From assembly GCF_014203395.1 (NCBI RefSeq), contig NZ_JACHIW010000004.1, positions 62,001 through 126,000 of the forward strand: DNA of 64,000 nucleotides, in the 5' to 3' direction. This DNA comes from Saccharopolyspora phatthalungensis (lineage in GTDB: Bacteria; Actinomycetota; Actinomycetes; Mycobacteriales; Pseudonocardiaceae). Under the pieces are notes generated by a model. It had not been told where the DNA came from. It did not search any database and saw only the letters and a program-made list of their open reading frames with translations. The position numbers and the translations under genes were made by a program. Shown here one piece after another: positions 31,771 through 64,000 of the stretch (its first letter is position 1; each line of letters starts with the position of its first letter).

Positions 31771-32228
31771 CCGCTACGGATACCACGACCGTGATCACGG
31801 TCGTGTTCAACGCCGATTTCTACTACGCACGCAGCGCAGCCGACGTCGCTGGCCTCGTGCGGATGATCGTCGAGGAGCCACCGGGGCGGGTCTGCACGGT
31901 ATATGCGTGGGACCGCCCATGCCTTTCGTTCCGGGAGGCGGGTGGTCCGGCGTACCCGACCGGTCGGCTGCGGGTCTCCACGTCGCCCGCCACCGGTTGG
32001 GGCGCAATCAACTACTGGGACCACGGCACACCGGACGGCCGTGTAGTCGATTCGTTCAACCCCGACGGCGACGAGCAGGCGCCCGTCCTGCCGTTGGACA
32101 CCGACGGGGCCGACTTCCCGGCATCCGCCGCGCTGCCGCTCGACCAGGTGCGCGAGGCCATTGCCGAGTACTGCCGGACCGGGGTGCGGCCTACGTGCGT
32201 GCAGTGGCAGCCCGGCAAGTGGACCTGA
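31767..32228 (+). CDS. Imm1-like immunity protein
   Basis: ATG 31767 overlaps the deaminase stop (ATGA), giving 153 aa. A central RLRVSTSPATGWGAINYWD segment and the C-terminal LDQVREAIAEYCRTGVRPTCVQW resemble the Imm1 family, which is found paired with DddA-type and other deaminase toxins. It is acidic and soluble, as expected for a protein that caps a toxin. Its assignment rests on these motifs and on the tight coupling with the deaminase. Confidence 0.72.
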   Translation: MTATDTTTVITVVFNADFYYARSAADVAGLVRMIVEEPPGRVCTVYAWDRPCLSFREAGGPAYPTGRLRVSTSPATGWGAINYWDHGTPDGRVVDSFNPDGDEQAPVLPLDTDGADFPASAALPLDQVREAIAEYCRTGVRPTCVQWQPGKWT

Positions 32229-33276
32229 CCTGGAGACGACGAAGGAATACCGCGGCTGGCGTTGCTGGGCCATGCGGCGGGGTTTGCGAAGCCGGTTGCG
32301 TCACCTCGCCTTGCTCGATGGTGTCCCGGAGCGAGGCGTCCGGCCGTAGCCGTGCGGGTGGCGTTTCGGGTCTTTCGCACACTCCTGCGTGTTCGACCAG
32401 GCAAACCTGTACGCTGGACTTGTTTATGCCGGGGGCAAGGCGATAAAAATCAAGCAACGCGCGTTGACCTGCTACCGGCGCGGGATGTACCTAGAAGTCG
32501 CTGACCACGACCACAATGCGGGTGGCAACGTCGCGTACCCATCGGATCAGCGACGACGTGTGGTGCCCTTGTGCACGTCCGCAAAGTGAGGGTCACGGTA
32601 AATGGTGATGCGCCGCTCCAGGTCTTGGGCAGGTGTTGACGAGAACCGCATATCGGCCAATCTGTCCGCTCGATCCGGACATCGTTGGCGACGCCGAGGC
32701 CCTGGGAATGTCCGGGAATTCGTCGAAGCAGAACCAGGAAATCATGAAAACCATTTCCGGTGGTGACCCGGCACGCACGCCCCGACTCAGTTGGCTCGGC
32801 TACAAAAAGCCGGCCGAATCGGTGGTCGCTCTTACGCCGGGCTCGGCGGCTCGACGGAATGCCGGGGCTAGAGATGACCGAGCGATTCGTCGCTGCCGCG
32901 AACGCCCAGGACCGATCCACGGCCCGCCCCCACGGGAGGGTGTGAATGGCGCCGGATCGAGTCGGGCGGTCTGGAGTCGAGCGCGGCTCGCGCGCACTTT
33001 CTGTTCCGCTGGCCACGGCCGCTGATCCCGCTACCGCCGGTGACCGGACATCCGCCGCCAGCCGCCGCCAACGCGAGCCGCGGGCGGTCCACTTAGGAAA
33101 TCGCGGTGGTGTCAAGGTCGGGACCTGCGGAGATCGCCGACCACCCGATCGGGTTACCTGCGCGGTGCCCGAAAAGGCAAGTTTGAGTGCCTACGGCGGA
33201 AGCGCCCGCCGAATTGCCTGTACATCAACGGGCGCTTCGTGCAACGGTGGCCGCAATTCGAAGACGAGGCAATGCA
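32229..33276. other. Intergenic region without a supported gene
   Basis: About 1 kb holds only short frames without recognisable motifs or good ribosome sites on either strand. The single clear structure is the hairpin at 33199-33238. The stretch may be debris from the rearrangement that removed most of the neighbouring transporter operon. Confidence 0.5.
33199..33238. terminator. Hairpin, possible terminator
   Basis: GAAGCGCCCG (33199-33208) pairs with CGGGCGCTTC (33229-33238) around a 20-nt loop, just upstream of the decayed transporter genes. Confidence 0.5.
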
Positions 33277-35232: not shown

Positions 35233-36093
35233 TCAGCTGAGGACCTGTTCGCGGCTGCTCTTGGTGGCGGCATGCTTCGACAACGCGGCGAGATCGTCCT
35301 CCACGGTCAGGTATCTTCCGGAGAGCGCGTCGGCCTGGCCCGCGGCAAGTTGGATCAGCACCTCGTTGGCACGTTCCGGCGTCGTGAAGTTACCGCTGTC
35401 CCGTTGTTCTTGAAGCCAGTCGCCGATGCGATCGGTCCAGACGTCTCCGGTCGGTCCCTGACGCAGGTGGTCGCCGGTCAGGCCGATGTCGAGCAGACCG
35501 GGGTGGTAGCTGAGGACCACCACCCCGTAGTCCCGGGTTTCCGGCGCTAGGTTCTCGGTGAGCTTGATGACGGCCGCCTTGGAGACCGAATACGCGGAGG
35601 CATGCGGCCAGCGGTACTTGCCGGCGGCGCTGACGATGTTGATGATGCGTCCGAAACCCCGTTCGGTCATTGCCGGGAGCACCGCTCGGCAGGCGCGCGT
35701 GGTTCCGCGCAGATTGACTTCGAGGGTGTGCCACCACTGGTCGGTATCCGTTTCCCACAGCGGCCCGTGCGGGCCGGGCACGCCCGCGTTGTTGACCAGG
35801 ATGTCGACCGCGCCGAAGGCGGCCGTGGCGTCGCTGACGACCCGGGTCATCGCGTCCGGGTCGGTCAGGTCGGCCTGGCAGGCCAGCACTTGATCGGTGC
35901 GGTCGGCTAACTCCTTGGCCACCACGCTAAGACTCTCCCGGTCCCGAGCGGTGATCACCAGATTGGCACCCGCACTGGCGAGGGCGTCGGCGAAGAGACG
36001 GCCGAGCCCTCGTGCCCCGCCGGTGAGCAACACGGTTCGACCCGACAACGGTTTCGCGTTGCTTGTGCGATCTCTCGGTTCCGGAACGACCAT
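35233..36093 (-). CDS. Short-chain dehydrogenase/reductase
   Basis: The 286-aa protein has the NAD(P)-binding TGGARGLG motif (residues ~24-31), NNAG at 101-104 and the catalytic set Ser155, Tyr168 and Lys172 (YSVSK). It is a classical cytoplasmic SDR with a C-terminal extension. Transcribed on the minus strand after the alcohol dehydrogenase (55-bp gap), it appears to be the last gene of the aromatic operon. It could reduce a keto group or oxidise an alcohol in the pathway; the substrate is unknown. Confidence 0.88.
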   Translation of the reverse strand: MVVPEPRDRTSNAKPLSGRTVLLTGGARGLGRLFADALASAGANLVITARDRESLSVVAKELADRTDQVLACQADLTDPDAMTRVVSDATAAFGAVDILVNNAGVPGPHGPLWETDTDQWWHTLEVNLRGTTRACRAVLPAMTERGFGRIINIVSAAGKYRWPHASAYSVSKAAVIKLTENLAPETRDYGVVVLSYHPGLLDIGLTGDHLRQGPTGDVWTDRIGDWLQEQRDSGNFTTPERANEVLIQLAAGQADALSGRYLTVEDDLAALSKHAATKSSREQVLS

Positions 36094-36148
36094 TGTGGTG
36101 ATCTCCTGATTATCGGCTGTATCGCTTATCGCCCACTATGGACGTTGC

Positions 36149-37174
36149 TCAGAGGCGGGCCAGGGCCTTGATCGCGGTGCGGTCGGCCATGGCTTGGTAG
36201 GCGTCCGGGATGCCGTCGAGGTCGACGGTCATGTCGAACACCGGCGACGGGTCCAGGTCACCGGACAGCACGTCGGCGAGGAGCGTCGGGGCCACCTCGC
36301 GGACCGGTGTCAGTCCGCCGCTCAGGGTGAGGTTGCGAAGGAAGATGGGCGATACGTCGTTGATCGTGAAGTGGGGAGCGCCGATCATCGCGATCGATCC
36401 GCCATCGCGCACCACGTCCAGCGCGGTGTCGATGGAGGACTGGACGCCGACGCATTCCACGACGCAGTGCGCTCCTCGCCCATTGGTCAGTTCGCGGACG
36501 CGAGCGCCGGCCTCGGCGCCGCGCTCCGAAACGATGGACGTGGCTCCGAATCCCGCACCGACCGAAAGGCGCGATTGGTGCGAACCGAGCAGAATGATCT
36601 GCTCTGCGCCCGCACGACGAGCAGCGAGCACAGCGCATAGCCCAACCGCGCCGTCCCCGACAACGGCCACTGTGGACCCCTGCCGCACCGCCGCTGCCCG
36701 CACGCCGTGCGTTCCGGTCGCCATCACATCCGTCAAGGTCAGCAAGGCGGGCAGGCGTTCGTCCCCGACGGTGAGCGGCAACCGCGTCAGGTTGGCGTCG
36801 GCGAACGGCACCCGGACGGCCTCGCCCTGCCCACCGTCGTTTTCGCCTCCCCACATGCCGCCGCTGCGGCAGGAAGTCGAAAGCCCGTCCTGACATGCGT
36901 CGCACGTGCCGTCGGAATACCAAAACGGCGCCAAGACCACGTCGCCGCGGCGCAATCCCGCGACGTCCTTGCCGATATCTTCGATCACGCCGAGGAATTC
37001 ATGCCCGGCTCGCGGCCCGGGCAGGATCGCCTCGCCGCTGCGATATCCCCACAAATCGGTCCCGCACACGGCGGCGAGCACGACGCGCACGACTGCGTCG
37101 GTCGGCTCCTTGATCTCGGGGTCTGGGAGATCGGAAACGCGGACATTCCCGGATTCACGAACTATGGCGCGCAT
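36149..37174 (-). CDS. Zinc-dependent alcohol dehydrogenase (MDR family)
   Basis: At 341 aa this is a medium-chain dehydrogenase. Catalytic zinc ligands lie in AAVCGTD and AGHEFLG, with VAVVGDGAVGLCAVLAA as the nucleotide-binding loop. The structural zinc lobe GTCDACQDGLSTSC shows three Cys, with Asp where a fourth is common. It lies 134 bp after the CoA ligase and 55 bp before the SDR on the same strand. It could interconvert an alcohol and an aldehyde in the aromatic pathway. Confidence 0.88.
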   Translation of the reverse strand: MRAIVRESGNVRVSDLPDPEIKEPTDAVVRVVLAAVCGTDLWGYRSGEAILPGPRAGHEFLGVIEDIGKDVAGLRRGDVVLAPFWYSDGTCDACQDGLSTSCRSGGMWGGENDGGQGEAVRVPFADANLTRLPLTVGDERLPALLTLTDVMATGTHGVRAAAVRQGSTVAVVGDGAVGLCAVLAARRAGAEQIILLGSHQSRLSVGAGFGATSIVSERGAEAGARVRELTNGRGAHCVVECVGVQSSIDTALDVVRDGGSIAMIGAPHFTINDVSPIFLRNLTLSGGLTPVREVAPTLLADVLSGDLDPSPVFDMTVDLDGIPDAYQAMADRTAIKALARL

Positions 37175-37308
37175 TCTGCTGCCCTCCGTGTTGTGCTGTT
37201 CGCCCCGCGCTGGTCGGGGAGTGGTTCAGTGGTGGAACGGACTGTTCGTTGCGGTCGATCGGTGTGAACGTCCGTTCGCTCTGGCTCACCACCGCACGTT
37301 GGAGGGAC

Positions 37309-38823
37309 TTACGTCCGTGCCGCCGGTACTTCCGGAGTGCGATCTGGTGCACCTTCGCGGCGCCGTAGCGCTTGTTTGTCGACTTTGCCCGTCGGGTTTC
37401 GTGGCAGGCCGTCCACGAACACGACGACCTTCGGGATCTTGTACTTGCCGAGATGTGCTCGCGCGAAGTTCCGGAGTTCGTCGGCGGTCAGGCCCGGTTC
37501 GGCAACGACCAGGGCCTTGCCGACCTCGCCCCACACCGGATCCGGCATGCCGATGACGGCGACGTCGACCACACCGGGGTGGTCGCGCAGGGCCGCTTCG
37601 ACCTCGGCGGGGTAGACGTTCTCCCCGCCGGAGATGAACATGTCCTTGAGCCGGTCGATGATGCGGTAGTCGCCGATCTCATCGACGACGGCGACATCGC
37701 CCGTGCACAGCCAGCCGTCCTCGTTGAGGGGACTGACATCGGGGCGCCGCCAGTATTCCGAGACGACGTTGGGACCGAACACCTCCAGCTCGCCGGGTTC
37801 GTCGACCGCCGCAGGGCGCCCGTCCGGGGTTCGCAGCCGGACATCGGTGAAGAAGGCGGGCGCGCCCGCCGCCCCGGCGTGCTCGACTCCGTCGCCGGGG
37901 GATTGCATCAGCACACTGGGCGCGGCCTCGGTCAAGCCATAACCCTGCATCAGCGGCAGGTTTCGTGCCTGGTAGCGCTCGATGAGCTCGGCCGTCAGCG
38001 GTGCGCCGCCGCAAAGCAGGAACCGCAGGCTGGACAGGTTGGCCCCGGGCCAGCGCGGCGAGCGGGCCAGCGCCTCGAACATCGTGGGAACGCCGGCTAA
38101 GAACGTGATTCGGTGCCGTTCGATCAGGTCGAAGCTGCGCTCGACGTCGAACTTATTCTCCAGCACGACAGTGCCGCCCTTGAGCAGCGTTGGCAGGCAA
38201 GCCATCCCGAGCGCGGCGGTGTGGAACAGGGGCGCGGACAGCAACGCGACGTCGGTTCCGCACAGGTCTATGTCAATGACGACATTGACCGAGTTCCAGG
38301 TGAGGTTCCCGTGGGTGAGCAGAGCGCCTTTGGGACGACCGGTGGTGCCCGAGGTGTAGAGAATCAGGGCCACGTCATCGAGCACAACGGGCTTGCGCAC
38401 CGGTTCGCTAGCTGTGAGTGCGTCGAAGTCGGCGACGTCGACCGTGCGCAGACCCGGGCGATCGGCGGCGAGTGCGTGGGCGTTCTCGCCGTACCGCGAG
38501 TCGTACACCAGCAGCGTCGCGCCCGAGTCATCGAGCAGGAAGCCCAGTTCGGCGTCGGCCAGGCGGGTGTTCAGCGGCACGAATACCGCGCCCACCTGTC
38601 CGGCGCCGAACAGGGTCGTCAGGAAACCCGGCTGGTTGGGGCCCAGGAACGCCACCCGGTCCCCGTGGTGAATTCCTTGTTCGACAAGGAAACGCGCAAC
38701 CCCGTGGCTGTGCGCCGCCAACTGTGCGTAGGTGTAGGAGTCGTCGCCGTAGATCACGGCCACGGACTCGGGTGTCCTGCGTGCGCGGCGAGCAGGCCAG
38801 GAACCCAATCCCTGATTAAGCAT
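37309..38823 (-). CDS. Acyl/aryl-CoA ligase (AMP-forming)
   Basis: The 504-aa adenylating enzyme has the P-loop LYTSGTTGRPKGALLTH, the GYGLTEAAP motif, TGDVAVVDEIGDYRIIDR and the terminal PRNPTGKVDK lysine motif, so both half-reactions look intact. It resembles medium-chain or cinnamate-type CoA ligases. Located 39 bp after the O-methyltransferase in the operon with the ammonia-lyase, it most likely activates the arylacrylic acid as its CoA thioester. A starter unit for the PKS is a natural use, but that is inference. Confidence 0.9.
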   Translation of the reverse strand: MLNQGLGSWPARRARRTPESVAVIYGDDSYTYAQLAAHSHGVARFLVEQGIHHGDRVAFLGPNQPGFLTTLFGAGQVGAVFVPLNTRLADAELGFLLDDSGATLLVYDSRYGENAHALAADRPGLRTVDVADFDALTASEPVRKPVVLDDVALILYTSGTTGRPKGALLTHGNLTWNSVNVVIDIDLCGTDVALLSAPLFHTAALGMACLPTLLKGGTVVLENKFDVERSFDLIERHRITFLAGVPTMFEALARSPRWPGANLSSLRFLLCGGAPLTAELIERYQARNLPLMQGYGLTEAAPSVLMQSPGDGVEHAGAAGAPAFFTDVRLRTPDGRPAAVDEPGELEVFGPNVVSEYWRRPDVSPLNEDGWLCTGDVAVVDEIGDYRIIDRLKDMFISGGENVYPAEVEAALRDHPGVVDVAVIGMPDPVWGEVGKALVVAEPGLTADELRNFARAHLGKYKIPKVVVFVDGLPRNPTGKVDKQALRRREGAPDRTPEVPAART

Positions 38824-38862
38824 TCCGCTCCCCTGTCAAACATCGCTCGGTTTCTCGGCGGT

Positions 38863-39531
38863 CTAGCGCTTGCGTGCCATGGTTAGCCCGTCGGCGATCG
38901 GGAGCATGACCGATTCGACGCGCTCGTCGGCTCGGACCCGGTCGTTGAAGGCCCGAATGGCGCTGGCATTGCCGGTGGCGTCCGGATCGGCCGCCTCGCC
39001 TCCGTACAGGACGTTGTCGGCGAGCAGCAGTCCGCCGGGGCGTACCCGGGGCACGAGCTCTTCCCAGTAGGTCTCGTATCCGGGCTTGTCGGCATCGAGG
39101 AACACCAGGTCGATCAGCGGCTCTTCGGGCAACGACCGGAGGGTGTCCGCCGCGGGCCCGATGCGCGGTTCGATGCGGTCGTCGACGCCGGCTCGCTTCC
39201 AGGCGTCCCGCGCGATGCTCATCCATTCCTCGGACAGGTCGCAGGTGGTCACCCGGCCATCCGGCGGCAGGCCCAGCGCGAACGCGAGGGTGGAATACCC
39301 GGTGAAGGTCCCCACTTCGACGATCCACCTGGCATTGACCAGGCGAGTGAGCAGGGTCAGGAACGCCGCCTGTTCGTGCGGGACCTGCATCTCGGCACAC
39401 CCACCGAGAGTGTGCGTCCGGTTGATCAGGTCCCGCTGCACCGGGGTGGGCGGCTTGGCCTGGTCCAGCAGGTACTCGTACAGGGCGGGAGTGATCTGCA
39501 GCGTCTTGATGTCGCCCGCGGTGGTGTTCAT
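38863..39531 (-). CDS. Caffeoyl-CoA/catechol-type O-methyltransferase
   Basis: ATG 39531 overlaps the upstream stop by 4 bp and has GAAGGGA in front, giving 222 aa, typical for the metal-dependent catechol/caffeoyl-CoA OMT family. WIVEVGTFTGYSTLAFAL is the SAM-binding motif. LVFLDADKPGYETYW provides the metal-binding Asp, and LLLADNVLYGG the second metal ligand pair. Such enzymes methylate one hydroxyl of a catechol. With an aromatic ammonia-lyase and CoA ligase beside it, a ferulate- or isoferulate-type product is likely. Confidence 0.9.
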   Translation of the reverse strand: MNTTAGDIKTLQITPALYEYLLDQAKPPTPVQRDLINRTHTLGGCAEMQVPHEQAAFLTLLTRLVNARWIVEVGTFTGYSTLAFALGLPPDGRVTTCDLSEEWMSIARDAWKRAGVDDRIEPRIGPAADTLRSLPEEPLIDLVFLDADKPGYETYWEELVPRVRPGGLLLADNVLYGGEAADPDATGNASAIRAFNDRVRADERVESVMLPIADGLTMARKR

Positions 39532-40523
39532 GGACGTCCCTTCATAGGTAGGGCAAACGATGGGGCGCCGCCGGCACGCTGCGCCACGATCTTTTCGGCG
39601 ACTGAGTCTTGGGACGCGACGGCCTCGGCGATCCCCAGCAGAAGGTCCCCGGCCTTTTCCTCGAATTCCGCGAATGCGTCGCGGAGCGTGGCGTCCAGCA
39701 GCGCCGGCGGAGAATCGGGCCCGCTCAAGCCGTGGACGGCGATGTCGGACATGACCTGGGCGAAGCGCCGGACGAGCTGCGCGGTGAACGCTCGCCGGCA
39801 CAGCGGGCGTCGCTCGACCTGGAAGAAGGCGTCGTAGGCGACACGTTCGGCCTCGGTCGGTCCCTGCGGGCGGCGCCCGGCATCCCGGAGGAGGGAGCCG
39901 CCGTCCGGCACGAGTTTCTTGGCGACGGCCATGTGCACCCGGTGATTGGCCTTGGCGGCCTCTCTGAGCGGTGCGATGGCCGCGGCGGGGTGGGTGTTTC
40001 GGATGTGCCGCAGGAGTCCCGGAATCATCTCGTAGTCGCGGGCCCACAGACCGCTGAAAGCCGGGTCGCAGGACATCATGTCAACGCGCACGGTGGCCGC
40101 GTAGTGCTCGGCCGAGCAGCTTCCGGTGTAAAGGAACAGCAGGGAGTACGCCTCATACAGGCGCGCCGCCATGCCGATCGCATCGGCAGAGGGTTCGGGA
40201 TCGGCGGCGATCGCGCGCAGCCATCGTTGCTTCAGCTGCCAGACGCCGAAAGCGGCGTGGTGACCGACCATCCAGCGGTAGCGGATCCGCTGCACCAGGT
40301 CCAGCGGCGCCCGCAGCTGGGCGGCGGGTCCGCCGTGGGCAGCCTGGGTAAGTGTCCGCACATCGTCTTCGATCGGTTGGGGGCACCCCGGCGCGTCCTC
40401 GGCCGGATGGGAGCACGGCGATAGGCTTTCGTCCGGATTGGCCAGTACAAGTGGACTGACTTCACCATACGTTGACGGGTCGGAAACCCGTAAACACACA
40501 TCGCCCGGCGCGGAAGGTTTCAT
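39528..40523 (-). CDS. Unrecognised His-rich helical protein; possible heme-type aromatic hydroxylase
   Basis: This 331-aa protein starts 12 bp after the ammonia-lyase stop and overlaps the O-methyltransferase by 4 bp. It is predicted largely helical, with conserved-looking histidines in RWMVGHHAAFGVWQLKQRW, SAEHYAATVRVDMM, RHIRNTHPA and NHRVHMAVAKKL. No named domain is certain. A catechol methyltransferase in the operon calls for a ring 3-hydroxylation. The size, helical content and histidines would suit a heme-dependent tyrosine hydroxylase (LmbB2/TyrH type), making DOPA before the lyase step. That identity is inference from context, not motif proof. Confidence 0.45.
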   Translation of the reverse strand: MKPSAPGDVCLRVSDPSTYGEVSPLVLANPDESLSPCSHPAEDAPGCPQPIEDDVRTLTQAAHGGPAAQLRAPLDLVQRIRYRWMVGHHAAFGVWQLKQRWLRAIAADPEPSADAIGMAARLYEAYSLLFLYTGSCSAEHYAATVRVDMMSCDPAFSGLWARDYEMIPGLLRHIRNTHPAAAIAPLREAAKANHRVHMAVAKKLVPDGGSLLRDAGRRPQGPTEAERVAYDAFFQVERRPLCRRAFTAQLVRRFAQVMSDIAVHGLSGPDSPPALLDATLRDAFAEFEEKAGDLLLGIAEAVASQDSVAEKIVAQRAGGAPSFALPMKGRP

Positions 40524-40535
40524 CAGAGGCTCCCC

Positions 40536-42047
40536 TCATAACGAGTGCTGGCCGGCGCAGCTCTCATCGAGAACGTCAGCCGCCTTGCGGACGTCCTCGT
40601 CCAATGGACGGTCAGGATTGACCGGTGCGACGACCTCGGCGAGCCGGTCGAACAAAGCGACACACCCGGGTGCGGTCGGGCGGCGTCCGCCGACGTGAAC
40701 GGCCTGCCGCAGGGCGACGGCAAGCGAGCCGTGCAGCAGGCGCAGGGTTTGCGCTTGGTCCAAAGCGTTCAGGGCGGCCTGGGTTCCGAAGGGGATGACG
40801 TCCTGGTTGTGCCAGTTCGTGGGCAGGCTTTGGATCGATGCGGGAGTCGCGGACCGCCGCATTGACGCCACCATCGCGGTGGCCGCGAGTTGCACACCCT
40901 GCACGGCGTGTTGGGCGCCGGGATTGGCGGCGAGCATCGGTGGCATCCCGCCATTGCGATGCGGGTCGATCAGCAGGTCCAGTTGCCGTTCGGCGAGGTT
41001 GCCCAGTTGCGTGGCGACGAGCGTCAGCAAGTCGGTGGAGAATGCCGCCGGCTGGCCGAAGAAGTTCCCGCCGTGCGCCACGAAATCGTCCTCGGGGAAG
41101 AACAGCGGGTTGTCACTGATGCTGTTGATGTCGTCGCGCACCACGCCGTCGGCGTAGTCGAGCGCGGAGGTGGCGGCGCCGATGAGCTGCGGGGTGCAGC
41201 GGATGCTGTAGGGCTCTTGCAGCGCCCTGGTTCCGGAGGGCACCAGGCCTTCGAGCAGTCCGCGCAGCTCGCTGCCAACCTGGCCGGCATGCGGGTGGCC
41301 GAAAGCCGCGAGCAAGCGCGAATCCAGGAAGGCGGGGGAGCAGCCGAGGACATCGATGAGCAGCGCCGACAATGACACCGCGGCGAGGCGGGAGCGAGAC
41401 AGGGACGCCACCGCGAGTCCGGCCGCGGCAGCCGTCAGGGAGGTCCCGTTCACCAGCGCCAGGGCATCGCGTCCGTCGAGGTCGACCGGTTCCAGGTGGG
41501 CACGCCGCAGCGCCTCGGCGGCCGGCAGCCGCTCTTGGCCGACGTAGGCATGTCCCTCACCTCGAAGCGCTCGGGCGACGTAGGACAGCGGAACCAGGTC
41601 GCCACTGGCTCCCAGCGACCCCAAGCGCGGTACCGCCGGGGTGAAATCCGTGCGCAAGGCGTTCGCGAGACTGTCGACGACGCCGAGCGACACCCCGGAA
41701 CGCCCCTGTGCGAGCGACCACATCCGGATCAGCATCGCGGCCCGCACCACGGGCTGTGCCAGATCGGGCCCCTGGCCGGCGCCCAGATGCAGCAGCGCGT
41801 TGTCGCACTGCTCGCTGGTGGTTTCACGCCCGTCGAAGACCACCAGCGGACCGAAGCCGGTGGTAGCCCCATAAACCGATCGACCGCTGTCGAGGGTCTG
41901 GAGGACGAATGCCCGGCAGGTCTCGATTCGCTCCCGTGCCGCGGCGTCCACGGTGACATCGATGTGTCCGCGCGCGCGTTCGAGGTCGCCAATGGTCAGT
42001 GGAGATTCGGGAGTCACCGCAATTGTGCGGACCGGCGCCGAGGTCAT
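40536..42047 (-). CDS. Aromatic amino-acid ammonia-lyase (MIO type, tyrosine-like pocket)
   Basis: This 503-aa protein has the self-cyclising ASG triad at 147-149 (LGSLGASGDLVPLS), the catalytic Tyr59 in YGATTGFG, and NSISDNPLFF. These are hallmarks of the histidine/phenylalanine/tyrosine ammonia-lyase family. The selectivity position reads His87-Leu88 (NALLHLGAG), the pair that favours a hydroxylated ring in bacterial tyrosine ammonia-lyases, rather than the Ser-His of histidases. It should release ammonia to give coumarate- or caffeate-type acids; some relatives are aminomutases instead. It is first in a six-gene minus-strand operon and divergent from the monooxygenase at 42588. GGAGA precedes the ATG. 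Confidence 0.88.
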   Translation of the reverse strand: MTSAPVRTIAVTPESPLTIGDLERARGHIDVTVDAAARERIETCRAFVLQTLDSGRSVYGATTGFGPLVVFDGRETTSEQCDNALLHLGAGQGPDLAQPVVRAAMLIRMWSLAQGRSGVSLGVVDSLANALRTDFTPAVPRLGSLGASGDLVPLSYVARALRGEGHAYVGQERLPAAEALRRAHLEPVDLDGRDALALVNGTSLTAAAAGLAVASLSRSRLAAVSLSALLIDVLGCSPAFLDSRLLAAFGHPHAGQVGSELRGLLEGLVPSGTRALQEPYSIRCTPQLIGAATSALDYADGVVRDDINSISDNPLFFPEDDFVAHGGNFFGQPAAFSTDLLTLVATQLGNLAERQLDLLIDPHRNGGMPPMLAANPGAQHAVQGVQLAATAMVASMRRSATPASIQSLPTNWHNQDVIPFGTQAALNALDQAQTLRLLHGSLAVALRQAVHVGGRRPTAPGCVALFDRLAEVVAPVNPDRPLDEDVRKAADVLDESCAGQHSL

Positions 42048-42518: not shown

Positions 42519-42568
42519 TTGACTTACGCCGAATGGGCGACGTAGCGTGCAAGTCAACGGTTGGTTAC
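42519..42568 (+). promoter_or_regulatory. Promoter and putative TetR operator of the monooxygenase gene
   Basis: TTGACT (42519-42524) and TAGCGT (42543-42548) are an 18-bp-spaced -35/-10 pair. Directly downstream, GTCAACGGTTGGTTAC (42553-42568) matches the reverse complement of a site in front of the tetR gene at 13 of 16 positions. A repressor bound here would block transcription start. Confidence 0.55.
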
Positions 42569-42587
42569 AAGGCGACGAGGAGGAGCG

Positions 42588-44045
42588 ATGGGGCAGGTGG
42601 AGGTGGTTGTTGTAGGGGGTGGACCGACGGGCATGACGGTCGCTGGCGATCTTGCTCGGATGGGCCATTCGGTGACGGTGTTGGAGCGGTGGCCGCAGAT
42701 CAATCCGTCGAGCCGGGCGTTCGCGACGATGGCCCGGACCCTGGAGGTGCTTGACAGCCGGGGGCTGGCCGAGGATTTGCTGGCGAAGGGGAACGCGACT
42801 CCGGCGGTGTCGCTGTTCAAGGGCGCCAAGATGGATCTCACCCGCCTTCCCTCGCGCTACCAATGCGTGCTGGTCACCCCGCAGACCAACGTTGATCAGG
42901 CGCTCGGTGAGTACGCCGTGGCGCAGGGCGCGCAGGTCCTGCGGGGCGTCGAGGTCGTCGGACTTGATCAGGATGCCGACGGGGTCACCGTGACCGCTCG
43001 CCCCAAGGGCGGCGGTGCGCCGACTTCGTGGCGAGCGTCCTACGTGGTGGGGGCCGACGGTGCGCACAGCACGGTGCGTGACCTGATCGGCAAGGAATTC
43101 CCGGGTAAGTCGGTGTTGCACTCGATGGTCCTCGCCGACGTCCGTCTCACCAACGGTCCGGCAGGTGGCGGTCTGACGCTGGGCAGTACGCCCGAGGTGA
43201 TCGGTTTCCTTGTGTCCTACGGACATGGCGGCTGGTACCGCTCGATGACCTGGGATCGCCATCGTCAACTCCCCGACGACGCCCCGGTGACCGAGAACGA
43301 GATTCGTGACGTGCTCAACCGCGCCATGAAACACGACGTCGGGCTCGCCGAGATCAGTTGGAAGTCGCGCTTCCATGCCGACGAGCGCCAAGTCGCCAAC
43401 TATCGCGATGGCCGGGTGTTCCTCGCCGGCGACGCGGCGCACGTGCACTCGCCGATGGGCGGGCAGGGGATGAACACCGGCATCCAGGACGCCGCCAACC
43501 TCGCGTGGAAGCTCGCACTGGCCCTCGACGGAGCCGACGACGCCATCCTGGACACCTACCAGGCCGAACGGCACCCGATCGGACGCCGAGTGGTGATGCA
43601 GAGCGGCGTCATGATGCGCATGGTCACCTCCGAATCGGCGGCGCTACGGTGGCTGCGCGACCAGTTCTTTCCACGGCTGATGCGGGCCCGCCCGCTGTCG
43701 AACGCGATCGCCGGCAGCTTCTCCGGGGTGGGCCTGCGCTACAAATCCGGTAGACACCAAGACAAACTCGTCGGAACGCGGGCCACCGAGGTGCCCTTGG
43801 TCGAGGGCAGGCTGACCGAACTGCAACGCCACCCCGGCTTCGTCCTGATCCGCGAGAAAGGGACTCCCCGGCTCGACACGGACCTGATCCAAGCCGAACG
43901 CACCGACGGCGGACCCGCGCTGCTCGTGCGTCCCGACGGGTACGTCGCGTGGGCAGGAGCGACCGATGCCCGCGAACACGGTTGGCGGGACGCGCTCGCC
44001 GGCTGGACCGGCGGCGAAGTCGGGACGGCCACGACTGCTTCCTGA
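42588..44045 (+). CDS. FAD-dependent aromatic monooxygenase (group A)
   Basis: ATG 42588 with GAGGAGGAG upstream gives 485 aa. The FAD fold is marked by VVVVGGGPTGMTVAGDL, the second FAD/NADPH motif VVGADGAHSTVR, and FLAGDAAHVHSPMGGQGMN. This is the p-hydroxybenzoate/phenol hydroxylase class used in polyketide tailoring and ring hydroxylation. The C-terminal thioredoxin-like tail is short. Divergent from the ammonia-lyase operon and preceded by a putative TetR site, it probably acts on the phenolic product of the same pathway, or as a resistance enzyme. Exact substrate is unknown. Confidence 0.9.
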   Translation: MGQVEVVVVGGGPTGMTVAGDLARMGHSVTVLERWPQINPSSRAFATMARTLEVLDSRGLAEDLLAKGNATPAVSLFKGAKMDLTRLPSRYQCVLVTPQTNVDQALGEYAVAQGAQVLRGVEVVGLDQDADGVTVTARPKGGGAPTSWRASYVVGADGAHSTVRDLIGKEFPGKSVLHSMVLADVRLTNGPAGGGLTLGSTPEVIGFLVSYGHGGWYRSMTWDRHRQLPDDAPVTENEIRDVLNRAMKHDVGLAEISWKSRFHADERQVANYRDGRVFLAGDAAHVHSPMGGQGMNTGIQDAANLAWKLALALDGADDAILDTYQAERHPIGRRVVMQSGVMMRMVTSESAALRWLRDQFFPRLMRARPLSNAIAGSFSGVGLRYKSGRHQDKLVGTRATEVPLVEGRLTELQRHPGFVLIREKGTPRLDTDLIQAERTDGGPALLVRPDGYVAWAGATDAREHGWRDALAGWTGGEVGTATTAS

Positions 44046-44614: not shown

Positions 44615-45208
44615 GTGGCCATCTCACGACCTCGCAACGCCGAAGCGACACGCGCGGACATTCTTTCGGCCGCGCGTGTCCGCTTCGGCGCCGACGGCTA
44701 TGAGCGGACGACGTTGCGTGCGATCGCCGCCGATGTGGGTGTTAACCCGGCGCTGGTGATCCGCTACTTCGGCAGCAAGGAAGACCTGTTCGCCGCCGCC
44801 GCGGATTTCACCCTGGATTTCCCCGACCTGGCCGACATCGCGCCACCGGACCTGGCCGCGGTGCTTTTGAACCGCTTCCTGGCCGTCTGGGAGCGCGACA
44901 GTACCTTCGTCGCGCTTCTGCGCGCGGCCGCCAGTAGTCCCACCGCCGCGGAGAGGATGCGGGAGGTGTTCGCCACCCAGGTAGCACCCGCGCTCGCCGC
45001 AGCCACGCCCGACCACCCCGGCCAGCGCGCGGCGCTCATGGGCGCCTTCATGGTCGGGCTGGCCACGTCCCGCTACATCCTGCGCACACCCGGTATCGCC
45101 GAAATGGGACATGAAGACCTCACCCGCTGGGCGGGCCCGATCATCACCAACATCCTCACCGACACCACGCAGTTCAGTCATCTGACGGGTCGCGGAAGCG
45201 CCCGATGA
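44615..45208 (+). CDS. TetR/AcrR-family repressor
   Basis: This 197-aa protein has an N-terminal helix-turn-helix (residues ~8-55: ADILSAARVRFGADGYERT, then ALVIRYFGSKEDLF). A C-terminal ligand domain ends RWAGPIITNILTD. A GTG start sits behind a GGGGG run. Shared operator-like sites before this gene and before the monooxygenase suggest it represses both and responds to a pathway product. Confidence 0.9.
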   Translation: MAISRPRNAEATRADILSAARVRFGADGYERTTLRAIAADVGVNPALVIRYFGSKEDLFAAAADFTLDFPDLADIAPPDLAAVLLNRFLAVWERDSTFVALLRAAASSPTAAERMREVFATQVAPALAAATPDHPGQRAALMGAFMVGLATSRYILRTPGIAEMGHEDLTRWAGPIITNILTDTTQFSHLTGRGSAR

Positions 45209-58398: not shown

Positions 58399-58501
58399 GT
58401 TCGCGGGAACGTGCCGTGCCCGGCCCGGAGGGCTTTCCTCCGGGCACGCGGGGCGTGTTTCTGGTGTTTGTCAGCTTTTTGCTACTTGGATCTGGGCGCG
58501 C

Positions 58502-59512
58502 ATGCTTAAACGTATCTTTGACCAGCAGGGCATGACGATCGATGGTGTGGTAAGTGAGGCGCTCGCGTACTTTCAACGGGGTCAGTTCGCGGATGGATCA
58601 ATACCAGACCCTTCCATCACGGAGTTTCCCACCGCGACACTCCTAAAATATTGGGACACGATCAACGCGCTCAAGGCGATCGCGTTGTGGCGAGATCAGG
58701 TCGACTACGACGACCGCGGCACCGTCGACGCGGTACTCAAGTACTTGCGGTCCTGCGAGAAGCCGAACGGGCTGATCAGCTGGGGCACGCTCGAAACCGC
58801 ACCGTCCGAGTACTGCACCGAGACGACCAGCGAGTACATCTCCAGCCTCACCCACCTTGGCCTCGTCGACGAGGCGAAGAAGAAGGCCATGGTGTTGCGC
58901 AGTCAGCAGCTTCCCTCCGGCCCGTGGTCGGAGGTGCATCCGCATGTCCCGAAGGCGTTTCAGACCGTTCCGTCGGTGACCGGGTTCGCATTGGGCGCGC
59001 TGCTCGGACTGGACATCGAACCGCTCTACGTGGACGAAGCGCTGAATTTCCTCGTCAGCACGCAGCACGACGACGGGCATTTCGGCATCAACTGGTTTTA
59101 TTACAACACCTACTACTACCTCACGCGGCCGGTTACCGCGGCCTTGGCGAACTTTGGGCACTACACGGCGGTCGCCGCCACCCGTGACTTCGTGCTGAGT
59201 CAGCAGCGCGAGGACGGCAGCTGGTACACCCAGGTCCAGGGTTTCTCTGACTTCTCCTCGCCCGAGCTGCACACGACGCTCGCGCTCGAAACGCTCGTCC
59301 ATGCCGGCATGGACGCCGATGAGCGGGCCGTGAGCAAGGGCATCGCCTGGCTGCTGACCAGGCTCCGGCCAGATGGCTCCTGGTATGGGGGGCCGTATCC
59401 ATATCCCGAAACCGACAGCTACCGCGACTTCCGGGCCTTGCAGGACGTTTACGCGACCTCTCAGGTGCTCGGGCTCCTCAAATTACTCGTGGATCTGGAG
59501 AACGAACAATGA
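58502..59512 (+). CDS. Alpha/alpha-toroid protein (prenyltransferase/squalene-cyclase repeat family)
   Basis: ATG 58502 gives 336 aa built from repeats with DG-x-W/F turns: DGSIPDPS, NGLISWGT, SGPWSEVHP, DDGHFGINWFYY, EDGSWYTQ and DGSWYGGPY. This is the alpha/alpha-barrel repeat seen in squalene-hopene cyclases and protein prenyltransferase beta subunits, about half the length of a triterpene cyclase. The protonating DxDD motif of class II cyclases is not visible. Its stop overlaps the PKS start (ATGA), so the two are translationally coupled. It might fold or cyclise the polyketide chain or another hydrophobic substrate, which is inference. Confidence 0.82.
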   Translation: MLKRIFDQQGMTIDGVVSEALAYFQRGQFADGSIPDPSITEFPTATLLKYWDTINALKAIALWRDQVDYDDRGTVDAVLKYLRSCEKPNGLISWGTLETAPSEYCTETTSEYISSLTHLGLVDEAKKKAMVLRSQQLPSGPWSEVHPHVPKAFQTVPSVTGFALGALLGLDIEPLYVDEALNFLVSTQHDDGHFGINWFYYNTYYYLTRPVTAALANFGHYTAVAATRDFVLSQQREDGSWYTQVQGFSDFSSPELHTTLALETLVHAGMDADERAVSKGIAWLLTRLRPDGSWYGGPYPYPETDSYRDFRALQDVYATSQVLGLLKLLVDLENEQ

Positions 59513-62500
59513 CGAAACCGGACGATTACGCAGGGGAGCCCGTCGCCGTCATCGGGATCGGATGCCGGCTGCCTGGCGGTGTGACGGATGGCGAGTCGCT
59601 TTGGAAGTTGCTGGAGGGGCAGGTCGACGCCATCGGGCCGATTCCCCAGGATCGGTGGGACGTCGAACGATACTACGCGGCAAGTTCCCAGCAGCCGGGA
59701 CGAATGAATGCGCGGGAGGGCGGCTTCCTCGACGAGGTCGATACCTTCGACGCCGCGTTCTTCGGCATCTCGGGCCGCATCGCTGAGCAGATGGACCCCC
59801 AGCAGCGTCTCCTCCTGGAGGTGTGCTGGGAGGCGTTCGAGGACGGCGGCGTCTCGCCGCACGGGCTAGCGGGCAGCCGGACCGGTGTCTTCATGGGCGG
59901 CTGCAGCCAGGATTACGGTGCGCTCCAAGGGGAGCCCTCCCAGATCGAGGGCCTGGGCCCGCACTCGGCCACCGGCACCTTCATGAGCATCATCTCCAAC
60001 AGGTTGTCCTACACGTTCGACCTGCGCGGGCCGAGCATGACGATCGATACCGCCTGCTCGTCGTCGCTGGCGGCCGTCCACCTGGCCTGCCAGAGCCTGC
60101 AGAACGGCGAGAGCGACCTGGCGCTGGCCGGCGGTGTCAACCTGATGCTGACACCGCAGTTCGCCATTGCCTTGAGCCAGGCGTCCATGCTGTCGCCAGA
60201 CGGCCGCTCGAAGGCTTTCGACGCGGCGGCCAACGGCTACGTGCGTGGCGAGGGTGCCGGCGTCGTTTTGTTGAAGCCGCTGAGCAAGGCATTGCTGGAT
60301 CGCGATCGCATCTACGCCGTGATCCGGGGTTCGGCGGTGAACCAGGACGGCCGGACACAAGGGATCACGGTGCCCAGCGGCGCCTCGCAGGAAGCCAACT
60401 TCCGTGCGGCCTTGTCCCGCGCCAGGGTCGCGGCGCAGGACATCGGTTACGTGGAGGCGCACGGTACGGGGACGCCGGTGGGCGACCCCATCGAGGCCAA
60501 CGCGCTGGGCCGGGTGCTCAGCGACAAGCGCGAGTCCGACCGGGTTGCCTTCGTCGGGTCGATCAAGACCAACATCGGTCACCTCGAAGCCGGTGCGGGT
60601 ATCGCGGGCTTGATCAAGGCCGTGCTGAGCGTCTACAAGCGGCAGATCCCCGGAAACCTGCACTTCCAGGCGCCCAACCCCGAGATCGACTTTGACCGCT
60701 GGGGCATGGAGGTGCCGACGAGCACGCGCGCCTGGCCGGAGTATTTCGACCGGGCCATCGCGAGCGTCAACTCCTTCGGTTTCGGTGGCACGAACGCGAA
60801 CGTGGTGCTGGAAGAGCCCCCGTCCGCACAACTCACGGTGGACGAACAGGCCGAGCCGCGCCCCGCGGTGCTTGCGCTCAGCGCGGGGAGTGCTCAGGCA
60901 CTTACCCAGCTGGCGGAGAACTACGCCTCCTGGCTGGAGGCCGAGCCCGTCGACCTGGAGCAGCTGGGCGCCAACCTCGCGCTGCGGCGCAGCCACCACG
61001 CTCATCGTCTCGCGGTCATCGCCTCGGACGCCGCGGATGCGGCGACGAAACTCCGCGGCTTCGCCACCGGCGAGCTCACTCCGGGTGCGATCAGCGGCGG
61101 CACCAAGCCGGGCGGGACCGGCAAGCTGGCGTTCCTGTTCAACGGCCAGGGCCCGCAGTGGTTCGCGATGGGCCGGACCCTGCTGAACACCAGCGAGGTC
61201 TTCCGCGCGAAGATCATGGAATGCGACCAGGTCGCGCGCAAGTACATCGACTGGTCGATCTACGACGAGCTGCTCGCCCCCGACGAGTCGTCTTCCAAGG
61301 TCAACGACACGTACTGCCTACAGCCCACGATGTTCAGCGTCCAGGTCGCGCTGGCCGAGCTATGGAAGTCGTGGGGCATCGTTCCCGACGGCGTCGCAGG
61401 GCACAGCATGGGCGAGATCGCCGCGGCGCACGTGTCCGGCGCGCTCGACCTCGATGCCGCCCTGAAGGTGATCTGCCGGCGGGCCGCGATCCAGGAGAAG
61501 GCGGACCCCACCGGGGCCATGATGTTCGTCGCCCTCAACAAGGACGACGCGCAGAAGCTGTGCGCCGAACACCCGGACCAGTTGTGGGTGTCCGCGGAAA
61601 ACGGCCCGGTCGCCTCCACCCTCTCCGGCCGCCGGGACCTGATCGAGGAGCTGGAAGTCAAGCTCCGCGGGCAAGGCGTGTTCGCGCGGGTGCTCCGGGT
61701 GAACTGCGCGTGCCACAGCCCGGACATGGAGCCCCTGCGCGAAGAGCTGCTTCGCGACCTGGACGGCGTCACGGGCGGTGACACCGCTGTTCCGATGTAC
61801 TCCACGGTCACCGGTGCCCGGATCGAGGGCCACGAGCTGGCGACTTCGTACTGGTGGAACAACTTCCGCCAGCCGGTGCTGTTCGCGCCGGCCATCCGCG
61901 CGATGCTGGCCGACGGGTTCGACGGTTTCGTCGAACTGAGCCCGCACCCCGTGCTGGCCAACTCCCTCAAGGAAATCCTGGCCGCCGAGGGCACCGACGC
62001 GCAGGTGGTTTCGTCGCTGGCGCGCAAGAAGGACGACTGGGAGTGCTTCCTGGAGGCGTTCGGGACCCTGGCCGTCCGGCGCGATGTGGCGTGGGAACGC
62101 CGTTACCCCACCAGCGCGCCCGTGCTCGACCTGCCGAAGAATCCCTGGATCCGGGAAACCTACTGGAACGAGAGCGAGACCTCGCGCCAGTACCGGGCCG
62201 GTGGGCAGGCGCACCCGATGCTCAAGCGGGTGGATGCCGTTCGGCCGACCTGGGAGATCAGGTGGGACGACCACCGCCTCACCTGGGTCAAGGAACACGA
62301 CGTGCTGGGTTCGGTGATCGTCCCCGGTGCGTCCTACGTGGAGGCCGCGTTGGCGGCGGCCCGGGAACTGACCGGCGAGAATTGTGCGCTGGAGTACCTC
62401 GAATTCGAGCGCGCCTGCGTGCTCGACGCCGACGAGCAGCAGGTGACTCGGCTCGAACTCGACCCCGTCCAGGGCACGTTCGAATTCCACCACCGGCCGG

Positions 62501-64000
62501 TTCGCAAGGACGGCTGGCGGCGCGCCTCGCGCGGCCGGTTCTACCGCACACCCCAGGACAGCGTGGTTCGCGTCTTCGATGTGGACGCCATCCGCGAGCG
62601 GTGCGCGACCGTCCACAAGCCCTTGGACGTCTACGGCGTGTTCCGTGAAAAGGGGTACTCCTACGGCCCCGCCTTCTGCGGAATCAGCAAGTTGCACATG
62701 GGCGACGGCGAGGCCCTGGCGCGCATCCAGGCGCCGAGGGTGCTCAAGAAGTCGCTGGATGGCTACCTGTTGCATCCCGCGGTGCTCGACGCCTGCTTCC
62801 AGTCCGCCATCCTGCACCCGTCCCAGGACCGGCCGGGCGAACTCCTGCCCTTCTCGTACCTGCCGACGGGCATCGACAACGTGCGGATCCACGACGAGCT
62901 GAGCCTGCCGTTGTGGTGCTACACGTTGGTGCGCAAGCTTGATGCGAGCGGGCTGCGCATCGAGATCTACGTCCTGGACGAACAGGGACGGGTGGTCGCC
63001 GAGTACGCCGGACTGCACGGCAAGGTCGTACCGCGGCCCGAAGCGGACGCGGCCGATCGCATCGATTCCCACTTCTACCGCACGATGTGGCAGCCCGACC
63101 GCCACACCGTTGCGGCACACGGCCCGTTGCCGACCGCGTTCACGCTGAACCACGAGACTCTGTTGTCCGAGCTGGAACCCGTGTCTCGCGAGCTGTCGCA
63201 GCGTGTTGCTCGGCCGGCGGAAACGGCGGGCTACCAGGCGGACGTGCACGGTCTGTGCGCCGCGTACGTGGTGGGCGCGCTGCGCAAGTTCGGCCGCGAG
63301 CTGACCATCGGCGAATCCTTCAAGGTCGAGGACTTTGCCGCACTGTTGCCATCGTTCAGCCGTGCCTTCACCCGGTTCCTCCGGTTCCTGGTCGAAGACG
63401 GCGTGCTGAGCGAGCAGGACGGCGTGTTCCAGGTCGTGTCCACACTGGACACCGACCCCGAGGGCCAGTGGTCCGAGGCGTTGTCCCGGCACCCGTCGCG
63501 GGTCTGGGAGTTGTTGCTGGTTCGCCGGACCGGCGAACACCTCCACGAGGTGCTCACCGGCGATGCCGACCCGCTGACCTTGCTCTTCCCCGCCGGGGCC
63601 GCCGAGGGCGTAGGCCCGATCTACGAGACCTCCCCGGTGAGCCGGTTCTACAACCTGCTGGCCAAGGAAGCGATCGAGCGGCTGGTCCGCACGGCCGACC
63701 CACGACGCACCCTGCGGGTGCTGGAGGTGGGCGGTGGTACCGGCGGGCTGACGGCGACCGTGCTTCCGGTGCTTCCCGCCGACCGGTGCGAGTACACCTT
63801 CACGGACGTATCGCCGGCGTTCACGCAGAGCGCCAGCGAGCTGTTCCAGGATTACGATTTCGTCGAGTACCGCACGCTGGACATCGAGAATGACCCCCTG
63901 GACCAGGGCATCGAGGAAGGCTCGTACGACCTCGTGCTGGCGGCGGACGTCGTGCACGCCACGGCCGACCTCAAGAAGACCCTGTCGTACCTCCAGTCGA
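59509..64000 (+). CDS. Type I polyketide synthase, KS-AT-DH-cMT... (3' end outside window)
   Basis: ATG 59509 overlaps the upstream stop; 1,497 codons are visible. The KS begins at once (EPVAVIGIGCRLPGG, no docking or loading region), with Cys183 in DTACSSS, His318 in EAHGTGT and His358 in IKTNIGHLE. The AT has GHSMGE (Ser633), but its specificity position reads CACHS rather than the HAFH or YASH of standard modules. The DH keeps H930 (HDVLGSVIVPG) and Asp1094 (LLHPAVLDACFQ). A C-methyltransferase follows with LEVGGGTGGL (~1406). This order resembles single-module, iterative highly reducing synthases. ER, KR and ACP would lie beyond the window. Confidence 0.92.
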   Translation, partial: MTKPDDYAGEPVAVIGIGCRLPGGVTDGESLWKLLEGQVDAIGPIPQDRWDVERYYAASSQQPGRMNAREGGFLDEVDTFDAAFFGISGRIAEQMDPQQRLLLEVCWEAFEDGGVSPHGLAGSRTGVFMGGCSQDYGALQGEPSQIEGLGPHSATGTFMSIISNRLSYTFDLRGPSMTIDTACSSSLAAVHLACQSLQNGESDLALAGGVNLMLTPQFAIALSQASMLSPDGRSKAFDAAANGYVRGEGAGVVLLKPLSKALLDRDRIYAVIRGSAVNQDGRTQGITVPSGASQEANFRAALSRARVAAQDIGYVEAHGTGTPVGDPIEANALGRVLSDKRESDRVAFVGSIKTNIGHLEAGAGIAGLIKAVLSVYKRQIPGNLHFQAPNPEIDFDRWGMEVPTSTRAWPEYFDRAIASVNSFGFGGTNANVVLEEPPSAQLTVDEQAEPRPAVLALSAGSAQALTQLAENYASWLEAEPVDLEQLGANLALRRSHHAHRLAVIASDAADAATKLRGFATGELTPGAISGGTKPGGTGKLAFLFNGQGPQWFAMGRTLLNTSEVFRAKIMECDQVARKYIDWSIYDELLAPDESSSKVNDTYCLQPTMFSVQVALAELWKSWGIVPDGVAGHSMGEIAAAHVSGALDLDAALKVICRRAAIQEKADPTGAMMFVALNKDDAQKLCAEHPDQLWVSAENGPVASTLSGRRDLIEELEVKLRGQGVFARVLRVNCACHSPDMEPLREELLRDLDGVTGGDTAVPMYSTVTGARIEGHELATSYWWNNFRQPVLFAPAIRAMLADGFDGFVELSPHPVLANSLKEILAAEGTDAQVVSSLARKKDDWECFLEAFGTLAVRRDVAWERRYPTSAPVLDLPKNPWIRETYWNESETSRQYRAGGQAHPMLKRVDAVRPTWEIRWDDHRLTWVKEHDVLGSVIVPGASYVEAALAAARELTGENCALEYLEFERACVLDADEQQVTRLELDPVQGTFEFHHRPVRKDGWRRASRGRFYRTPQDSVVRVFDVDAIRERCATVHKPLDVYGVFREKGYSYGPAFCGISKLHMGDGEALARIQAPRVLKKSLDGYLLHPAVLDACFQSAILHPSQDRPGELLPFSYLPTGIDNVRIHDELSLPLWCYTLVRKLDASGLRIEIYVLDEQGRVVAEYAGLHGKVVPRPEADAADRIDSHFYRTMWQPDRHTVAAHGPLPTAFTLNHETLLSELEPVSRELSQRVARPAETAGYQADVHGLCAAYVVGALRKFGRELTIGESFKVEDFAALLPSFSRAFTRFLRFLVEDGVLSEQDGVFQVVSTLDTDPEGQWSEALSRHPSRVWELLLVRRTGEHLHEVLTGDADPLTLLFPAGAAEGVGPIYETSPVSRFYNLLAKEAIERLVRTADPRRTLRVLEVGGGTGGLTATVLPVLPADRCEYTFTDVSPAFTQSASELFQDYDFVEYRTLDIENDPLDQGIEEGSYDLVLAADVVHATADLKKTLSYLQS

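Follow-up and report, generated by a model that had tools for sequence, protein, structure and literature searches.

How does a bacterium furnish the catechol on which a catechol O-methyltransferase would act when no canonical 4-coumarate 3-hydroxylase gene stands in the same operon? The question is raised by a 64,000-nucleotide stretch of the 8.54-Mb genome of Saccharopolyspora phatthalungensis (contig NZ_JACHIW010000004.1, positions 62,001 to 126,000; hereafter the window, with positions counted from its first letter). Here six closely spaced genes on the minus strand (42047 to 35233) code for an MIO aromatic amino acid ammonia-lyase, a homologue of heme-dependent L-tyrosine hydroxylases (TyrH), a class I catechol O-methyltransferase (COMT), a feruloyl-CoA synthetase-like (FCS-like) acyl-CoA ligase, a zinc-type medium-chain alcohol dehydrogenase (ZnADH) and a classical short-chain dehydrogenase/reductase (SDR). 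We consider it likely that this operon is a self-contained route from L-tyrosine to feruloyl-CoA in which the aromatic ring would be finished before the nitrogen is removed. An earlier, sequence-only reading of the window had proposed a route to a ferulate-type CoA unit that passes first through 3,4-dihydroxyphenylalanine (DOPA), and homology and comparative genomics leave this as the best reading of the locus.

The layout described in that reading is borne out by the open reading frames (ORFs) and their domain matches. Along the operon the genes are separated by 12, -4, 39, 134 and 55 nt, and a Shine-Dalgarno-like site lies ahead of five of the six starts. The remaining start is that of the COMT gene, an ATG at 39531 that overlaps the TyrH stop codon by 4 nt (ATGA).

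A tyrosine hydroxylase homologue as the candidate source of the second hydroxyl

The 331-aa product of 39528..40523 (minus strand), previously set down as an unrecognised His-rich protein, has no match in the Pfam or NCBIfam copies scanned. Among solved structures, phmmer matches it over about 235 residues to 7kqr (E 1.1e-25) and 8r2s (E 6.6e-25), chains that bear the names heme-dependent L-tyrosine hydroxylase and L-tyrosine 3-hydroxylase. A protein search with the same query lists 25 proteins, one of which is a piece of the query. Every one is assigned to the newer Pfam family PF27188, and three of these relatives (P0004, P0008, P0016) are fused to a PF01596 methyltransferase. The protein also carries the RWx3H motif and a later conserved histidine: R83, W84, G87, H88 and H197 are kept in all 62 rows of a set that includes the window and one repeat (L061, which duplicates L005), and in a 21-row alignment H88 and H197 are invariant, with R83 and W84 present in at least 90%. 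The motif is described for LmbB2, an enzyme converting tyrosine to DOPA (PMC3851162), and another report refers to the LmbB2-type group as histidine-ligated heme proteins (PMC13394420). Judged by homology, the formerly unrecognised protein is a heme-dependent L-tyrosine hydroxylase homologue; profile comparison with that family had been suggested as a check in the sequence-only reading.

The absence of a canonical 4-coumarate 3-hydroxylase, noted before for the operon, holds genome-wide for enzymes of the HpaB type (PF11794), the best match in the S. phatthalungensis genome (99.4% complete) scoring 22.3 bits against a cut-off of 35. The same model produced matches in 6 of 14 control genomes, E. 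coli included, and exceeded its cut-off in four.

The lyase, the methyltransferase and the CoA ligase

The first gene of the operon (40536..42047, minus strand; 503 aa; PF00221, E 9e-130) encodes an MIO lyase whose A147-S148-G149 triad, Y59 and H87 are kept in 50 of 50 rows. We take the Ala-Ser-Gly triad to form the MIO group, the tyrosine to be catalytic and the histidine to occupy the ring-selecting position. His87 aligns with the histidine of the His-Leu pair of 2o6y, presumably a tyrosine ammonia-lyase (TAL) in which that pair selects tyrosine, and the tyrosine-type pocket that had been assigned to the lyase is upheld by this alignment together with the conservation of the residue. The best solved relatives are 2o6y itself and the tyrosine aminomutase 2rjr. 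The sequence-only reading had named a histidase or an aminomutase as the outcome that would undo it; the lyase falls below the cut-offs of all eight NCBIfam models matched, histidase and aminomutase models included (HutH, 341 bits against 539; tyrosine mutase, 280 against 501), although a histidase model scores best. A histidase assignment was rejected because the cut-off of that model is not reached, and the partner genes favour a putative hydroxycinnamate-forming lyase.

The COMT (38863..39531, minus strand; 222 aa; PF01596, E 1.6e-52) exceeds its Pfam cut-off by a wide interval (178 bits against 22, scanned in a frame from 39558 that is nine residues longer than the 222-aa ORF). It contains the segments FLDADK and ADNVL, which we take to be the acidic and Asn metal-site segments, and its solved O-methyltransferase (OMT) relatives include 5lhm (E 3e-59) and the caffeoyl-CoA OMT 1sui. 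The acyl-CoA ligase (37309..38823, minus strand; 504 aa; PF00501/PF13193) matches 8wev, a structure to which its depositors gave the label Feruloyl-CoA Synthetase, at E 5.9e-162, with 266 of 488 aligned residues identical (54.5%), and its next best homologue in the same genome is only 38% identical. This similarity marks it as a relative of feruloyl-CoA synthetase.

Linkage of the module across genomes

Within 390 genomes of the family, TyrH homologues (E <=1e-8) occur in 65 genomes at 76 places, and the MIO gene (E <=1e-120) in 63 genomes at 94 places. Adjacency, computed from match coordinates, is uneven: an MIO gene lies within 3 kb at 44 of the 50 closer TyrH places (at least 119 bits, window included) and at none of the 26 weaker ones. 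By a rough estimate, about 0.001 such adjacencies would be expected by chance per place, and the clustering is therefore far above chance. One of the six closer places without an MIO gene (G232:C19) may reflect a contig break. In a class-wide sample of 394 genomes TyrH occurs in 6 (S. phatthalungensis included), and it passes E 1e-34 in 6 of 387 genomes classed as Streptomyces-like by their chaplin counts. Plasmids yielded no match to TyrH, the 22 genomes of the order of G408 contained no further TyrH genome, and one scan of genome contigs returned two loci only.

Neighbourhoods were read at 34 of the 50 closer family places and at nine others, giving 44 rows that represent 43 distinct loci (L061 repeats L005); the other 16 closer places, all from genus g26, enter the linkage count only. 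COMT is present in 43 of the 44 rows, MIO in 34, a ligase resembling 4-coumarate--CoA ligase (4CL) in 28 (26 of them with MIO), an SDR in 25, ZnADH in 14, phenolic acid decarboxylase in five, a tyrosine phenol-lyase-like gene in five (one a duplicate) and a laccase in six, two of these without MIO; the near-gene rules behind these counts are loose for generic AMP ligases (33% identity) and SDRs (38%), and some contigs are short. A hydroxycinnamate-type enzyme accompanies 32 of the 34 MIO-linked loci (an FCS-like ligase in the window, 4CL-like ligases in 26, phenolic acid decarboxylases in five), the two others being L035 and L113. Ferulate as the product of the three-gene core finds its best indirect evidence here, in three kinds of hydroxycinnamate-using enzyme that follow one and the same core.

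The same rows bear on the alternative supplier of the second hydroxyl. The sequence-only reading had left the choice between the His-rich protein and a divergent FAD aromatic hydroxylase-like monooxygenase on the opposite strand (42561..44045, plus strand; PF01494). TyrH homology speaks for the former. The latter was set aside and is judged to lie outside the module, since among the other 43 TyrH rows, which represent 42 distinct loci and include a few short contigs, none has a match of at least 40% identity within 9 kb; it and the FCS-like ligase are each found, among the 44 rows, only in the window.

Variants of the locus and the TyrH tree

The ends of the module differ among relatives. In the Streptomyces-like loci L112, L114 and L115, consecutive genes encode the MIO enzyme, a fused TyrH-COMT, a further methyltransferase and phenolic acid decarboxylase, and L060 joins MIO, TyrH and COMT to a decarboxylase for which phenolic and ferulic acid decarboxylases are the best matches among solved structures. 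In most family loci the partner ligase is nearest to solved 4-coumarate--CoA ligases (tested on L043), and in several it is fused to an SDR. Two further loci, L004 and L005, have no lyase within 10 kb and instead place a tyrosine phenol-lyase beside TyrH and COMT, a combination that would be predicted to give guaiacol. In both, the three genes lie on the same strand (L004:9968-13145 and L005:9914-14865, the latter with a further methyltransferase between them), forming a candidate tyrosine-to-guaiacol operon.

Two other arrangements were seen in passing. L048:5243-13650 holds, almost without gaps on one strand, a 4CL-SDR-like ORF, MIO, COMT, TyrH, a multicopper oxidase, a 179-aa ORF with no Pfam match and a SnoaL-like protein, possibly a phenol-coupling operon. 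The same MIO family is also represented at 14 TyrH-less loci (L080-L091, L096 and L097), many of which belong to genera g8 and g26; 13 of the 14 have an AMP ligase of weak similarity close by.

In a midpoint-rooted TyrH tree of 68 rows, the module-linked clade (43 rows) is split from the distant homologues, L062 and L063 among the latter, with 100/100 support. At the outer edge of this clade, L117, L118 and L021 have COMT and no MIO gene, and the TyrH-COMT pair may therefore predate the link to the lyase. The window TyrH falls in a sub-clade with the decarboxylase loci, L004 and L005 (97/91), next to L004 (100/97), and the window SDR and ZnADH match the 4CL sub-clade (52% and 60% identity to L023). 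From these discordant positions the window operon appears to be a cassette that has recombined, with an FCS-like ligase in the place that a 4CL-like one holds elsewhere.

Proposed pathway and competing explanations

In the pathway we favour, the TyrH homologue would hydroxylate free L-tyrosine to L-DOPA, probably with hydrogen peroxide by analogy with its family; COMT would methylate the 3-hydroxyl to give 3-O-methyl-DOPA; the MIO lyase would remove ammonia from this to give ferulate; and the FCS-like ligase would convert ferulate to feruloyl-CoA. In a fifth step, the SDR would reduce the CoA ester to coniferaldehyde, and ZnADH would then give coniferyl alcohol. The first four steps are proposed from homology and from the recurrent natural pairing of the genes, whereas the order of the second and third, and all of the fifth, we infer.

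Methylation probably precedes elimination, the intermediates running from tyrosine through DOPA and 3-O-methyl-DOPA to ferulate, because LmbB2-type TyrH enzymes act on free tyrosine and because TyrH and COMT are coupled, fused, or present together without a lyase, both in the outer branches of the clade and, beside a tyrosine phenol-lyase, in L004 and L005. The competing order, in which TyrH makes DOPA, the lyase turns it into caffeate and COMT methylates caffeate or caffeoyl-CoA to ferulate, is rather unlikely. It draws on the caffeoyl-CoA OMTs (1sui) among the solved relatives of COMT, on the leading place of the MIO gene in the operon and on Streptomyces OMTs that methylate caffeate, as reported in a review (PMC8773403); yet COMT is fused or coupled by 4 nt to TyrH and not to the lyase or ligase, and the pair is also found without a lyase. 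An MIO enzyme acting as an aminomutase, so that the ligase would activate a beta-amino acid (3-methoxy-beta-tyrosine), is highly improbable: 2rjr does stand among its nearest solved relatives, but both the tyrosine and the phenylalanine aminomutase models remain far under their cut-offs, related cassettes end in a phenolic acid decarboxylase, whose substrate has to be a hydroxycinnamate, and the nearest match to the ligase is feruloyl-CoA synthetase. We give equally little credence to ferulate catabolism, with a feruloyl-CoA synthetase gene of the route to vanillin placed by chance beside the other genes. Feruloyl-CoA synthetases are known mainly from catabolism and the ligase is the only close homologue of its kind in the genome, but the three upstream genes build rather than degrade an aromatic acid, and the operon, to which this search was confined, contains no crotonase-type hydratase-lyase or vanillin dehydrogenase.

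The further suggestion of the sequence-only reading, that the feruloyl-CoA primes a nearby type I polyketide synthase (PKS) as its starter, fares poorly and is very unlikely. The operon and the PKS, which runs from 59509 past the end of the window, share these 64 kb; in 12 of 37 TyrH-module rows PKS-like sequence, mostly of KS type, lies about 10 kb or less from TyrH, with Pfam KS domains confirmed near cassettes L024, L040 and L043, and some cassettes in relatives may serve polyketides. On the other side, the gene adjoining the PKS (58334-59512), taken as a cluster marker, is found in none of 39 other TyrH-module genomes and none of 21 other genomes of the genus. This marker is a single protein, and its search for co-occurrence with the module covered 40 genomes including that of S. 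phatthalungensis; one of them, G348, has TyrH and COMT without MIO, and G202, G045, G679 and six Streptomyces-like TyrH genomes lay outside it. About 17 kb containing Lsr2-type and SsgA-family genes separates the two, and the PKS opens with a KS, with no loading domain by Pfam and with an AMP ligase of its own downstream. In a Lentzea-like genus the cassette sits among housekeeping genes, between a penicillin-binding-protein gene and glucan-metabolism genes, with no PKS match. Conservation of the operon in strains lacking both a PKS and aromatic products had also been named as a finding that would tell against the proposal; its PKS half does describe what is seen, apart from the KS genes near the 12 rows.

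Several observations weigh against the preferred route from tyrosine through 3-O-methyl-DOPA to feruloyl-CoA. The NCBIfam model that scores highest for the lyase is a histidase one (356 bits, cut-off 524). At 50 of its 94 places the MIO family occurs without TyrH nearby (for example at loci L080-L099), so that tyrosine itself may be what the lyase acts on, and TyrH-linked MIO enzymes cannot be told from unlinked ones by any residue. Conversely, 10 of the 44 TyrH rows have no MIO gene nearby, and L022 lacks COMT as well. A tyrosine phenol-lyase next to TyrH and COMT would yield guaiacol whichever order is followed. The structure 8weu, with the same aligned letters as 8wev, was deposited as Fatty-acyl-CoA synthase. 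Toward the proposed reductive end, the SDR is a classical one, for which none of the 25 top-ranking NCBIfam models reaches its cut-off, and in L098 ZnADH adjoins an MIO gene without a ligase match.

The proposed reductive end

The SDR (35233..36093, minus strand; 286 aa; PF00106, E 3.5e-52) shares 40-54% identity with SDRs found close to the cassette in relatives, and several of those form the C-terminal half of a ligase-SDR fusion. ZnADH (36149..37174, minus strand; 341 aa; PF08240/PF00107) belongs to the zinc-dependent medium-chain dehydrogenase/reductase family by Pfam and has 52-60% identical genes in 13 other rows; its nearest solved relatives are general alcohol dehydrogenases. A wax-ester-synthase-family gene lies near the cassette in L023 and L113. 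Because of the SDR-ligase fusion in relatives and of such neighbours (the wax-ester-synthase-family gene and laccase), we tentatively suggest that SDR and ZnADH could carry feruloyl-CoA through coniferaldehyde to coniferyl alcohol, a proposal that we hold to be somewhat less probable than its contrary and that the classical type of the SDR makes us treat with caution. More speculative again, and doubtful, is the idea of a complete bacterial monolignol pathway, leading from tyrosine to coniferyl alcohol within one six-gene operon and assembled independently of plants, as part of a widespread actinomycete module with swapped ends, some of whose members carry a laccase that might link the phenols to form lignan- or lignin-like products.

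Other features of the window

On the opposite strand beyond the MIO gene, the divergent FAD monooxygenase is followed by a small ORF and a TetR-family regulator (44615..45208, plus strand; PF00440, E 4.5e-15), which is a possible local regulator. The distance from the operon's MIO end to the PKS is 17.5 kb; the first gene of the PKS (59509..64000 in the window, plus strand; L002:3509-11092) encodes a 2527-aa type I PKS with the order KS-AT-DH-MT-ER-KR-ACP and is judged to belong to a separate cluster. A 2755-aa ORF at 31-8298 (plus strand) was considered as a PKS and dismissed because it has no Pfam match at 1e-5; it also failed the GC3 filter and so may not be one gene. At 49573-53791 (minus strand) an O-methyltransferase with an N-terminal extension of about 220 residues stands beside an aldehyde-dehydrogenase-like ORF and a 380-aa ORF with no Pfam match, neighbours that we read as LuxC-like and LuxE-like; the extended enzyme has a 39% identical homologue over 571 aligned positions in L024, near the TyrH cassette. 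A DddA-like deaminase domain (PF14428, E 8e-17) is encoded at 31030-31770 (plus strand) and overlapped by an ORF without a Pfam match (31754-32446, plus strand), a pair resembling a toxin gene and its possible immunity partner. Finally, the 1196-aa product of 18962-22552 (plus strand) combines a right-handed beta helix with AAA ATPase domains and AAA lids in an unusual architecture.

Relation to known systems and significance

A close parallel is the saccharomicin pathway, in which we take Sam8 to be the MIO lyase and Sam5 to be HpaB-like. There too an actinomycete, Saccharothrix espanaensis, makes a 3,4-dioxygenated cinnamate; a review treats p-coumarate and Sam5 (PMC8773403), with Sam5 hydroxylating free p-coumarate after deamination, whereas here a heme TyrH and COMT would take its place. 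LmbB2, Orf13 and 7kqr (the last presumably from S. sclerotialus) resemble the window TyrH in homology to 7kqr, in the RWx3H motif of LmbB2 and in the later conserved histidine; LmbB2 and Orf13, however, serve lincomycin and anthramycin, while the clade of the window goes together with COMT and, in most cases, an MIO lyase. The ligase shares its 54.5% identity with 8wev but stands beside biosynthetic genes. BagA and FevW, the tyrosine ammonia-lyases of bagremycin and ferroverdin, are likewise actinomycete MIO lyases, yet their model NF041222 gives the window lyase 246 bits, far below the cut-off of 1000, and we know of no TyrH or COMT step in either pathway. The plant monolignol pathway proceeds by a lyase, 3-hydroxylation, O-methylation, 4CL, cinnamoyl-CoA reductase (CCR) and cinnamyl alcohol dehydrogenase (CAD), and the operon has a plausible counterpart for all six reaction classes; the hydroxylase here comes from a different family and would use the amino acid as its substrate, and the SDR is classical, not plant-CCR-like.

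Each enzyme family has been described before. Judged by titles and the opening lines of abstracts, no paper in the open-licence literature, which omits most subscription papers, describes this combination, the proposed order or the exchangeable ends, and this is no proof of novelty. A 2022 review states that little information exists on how actinobacteria make ferulate (PMC8773403). The operon and its relatives would offer a concrete, gene-level answer, with an unusual inferred order in which the amino acid is hydroxylated and methylated before it is deaminated. If this is true, the ends of the module have been exchanged among relatives, a CoA ligase with reductases in some, a decarboxylase leading to vinylguaiacol in others and a tyrosine phenol-lyase leading to guaiacol in others still, and the set supplies candidate enzymes for producing ferulate, vinylguaiacol or guaiacol without a coumarate hydroxylase. 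It also suggests that phenylpropanoid alcohols and their coupling by laccase may exist in bacteria.

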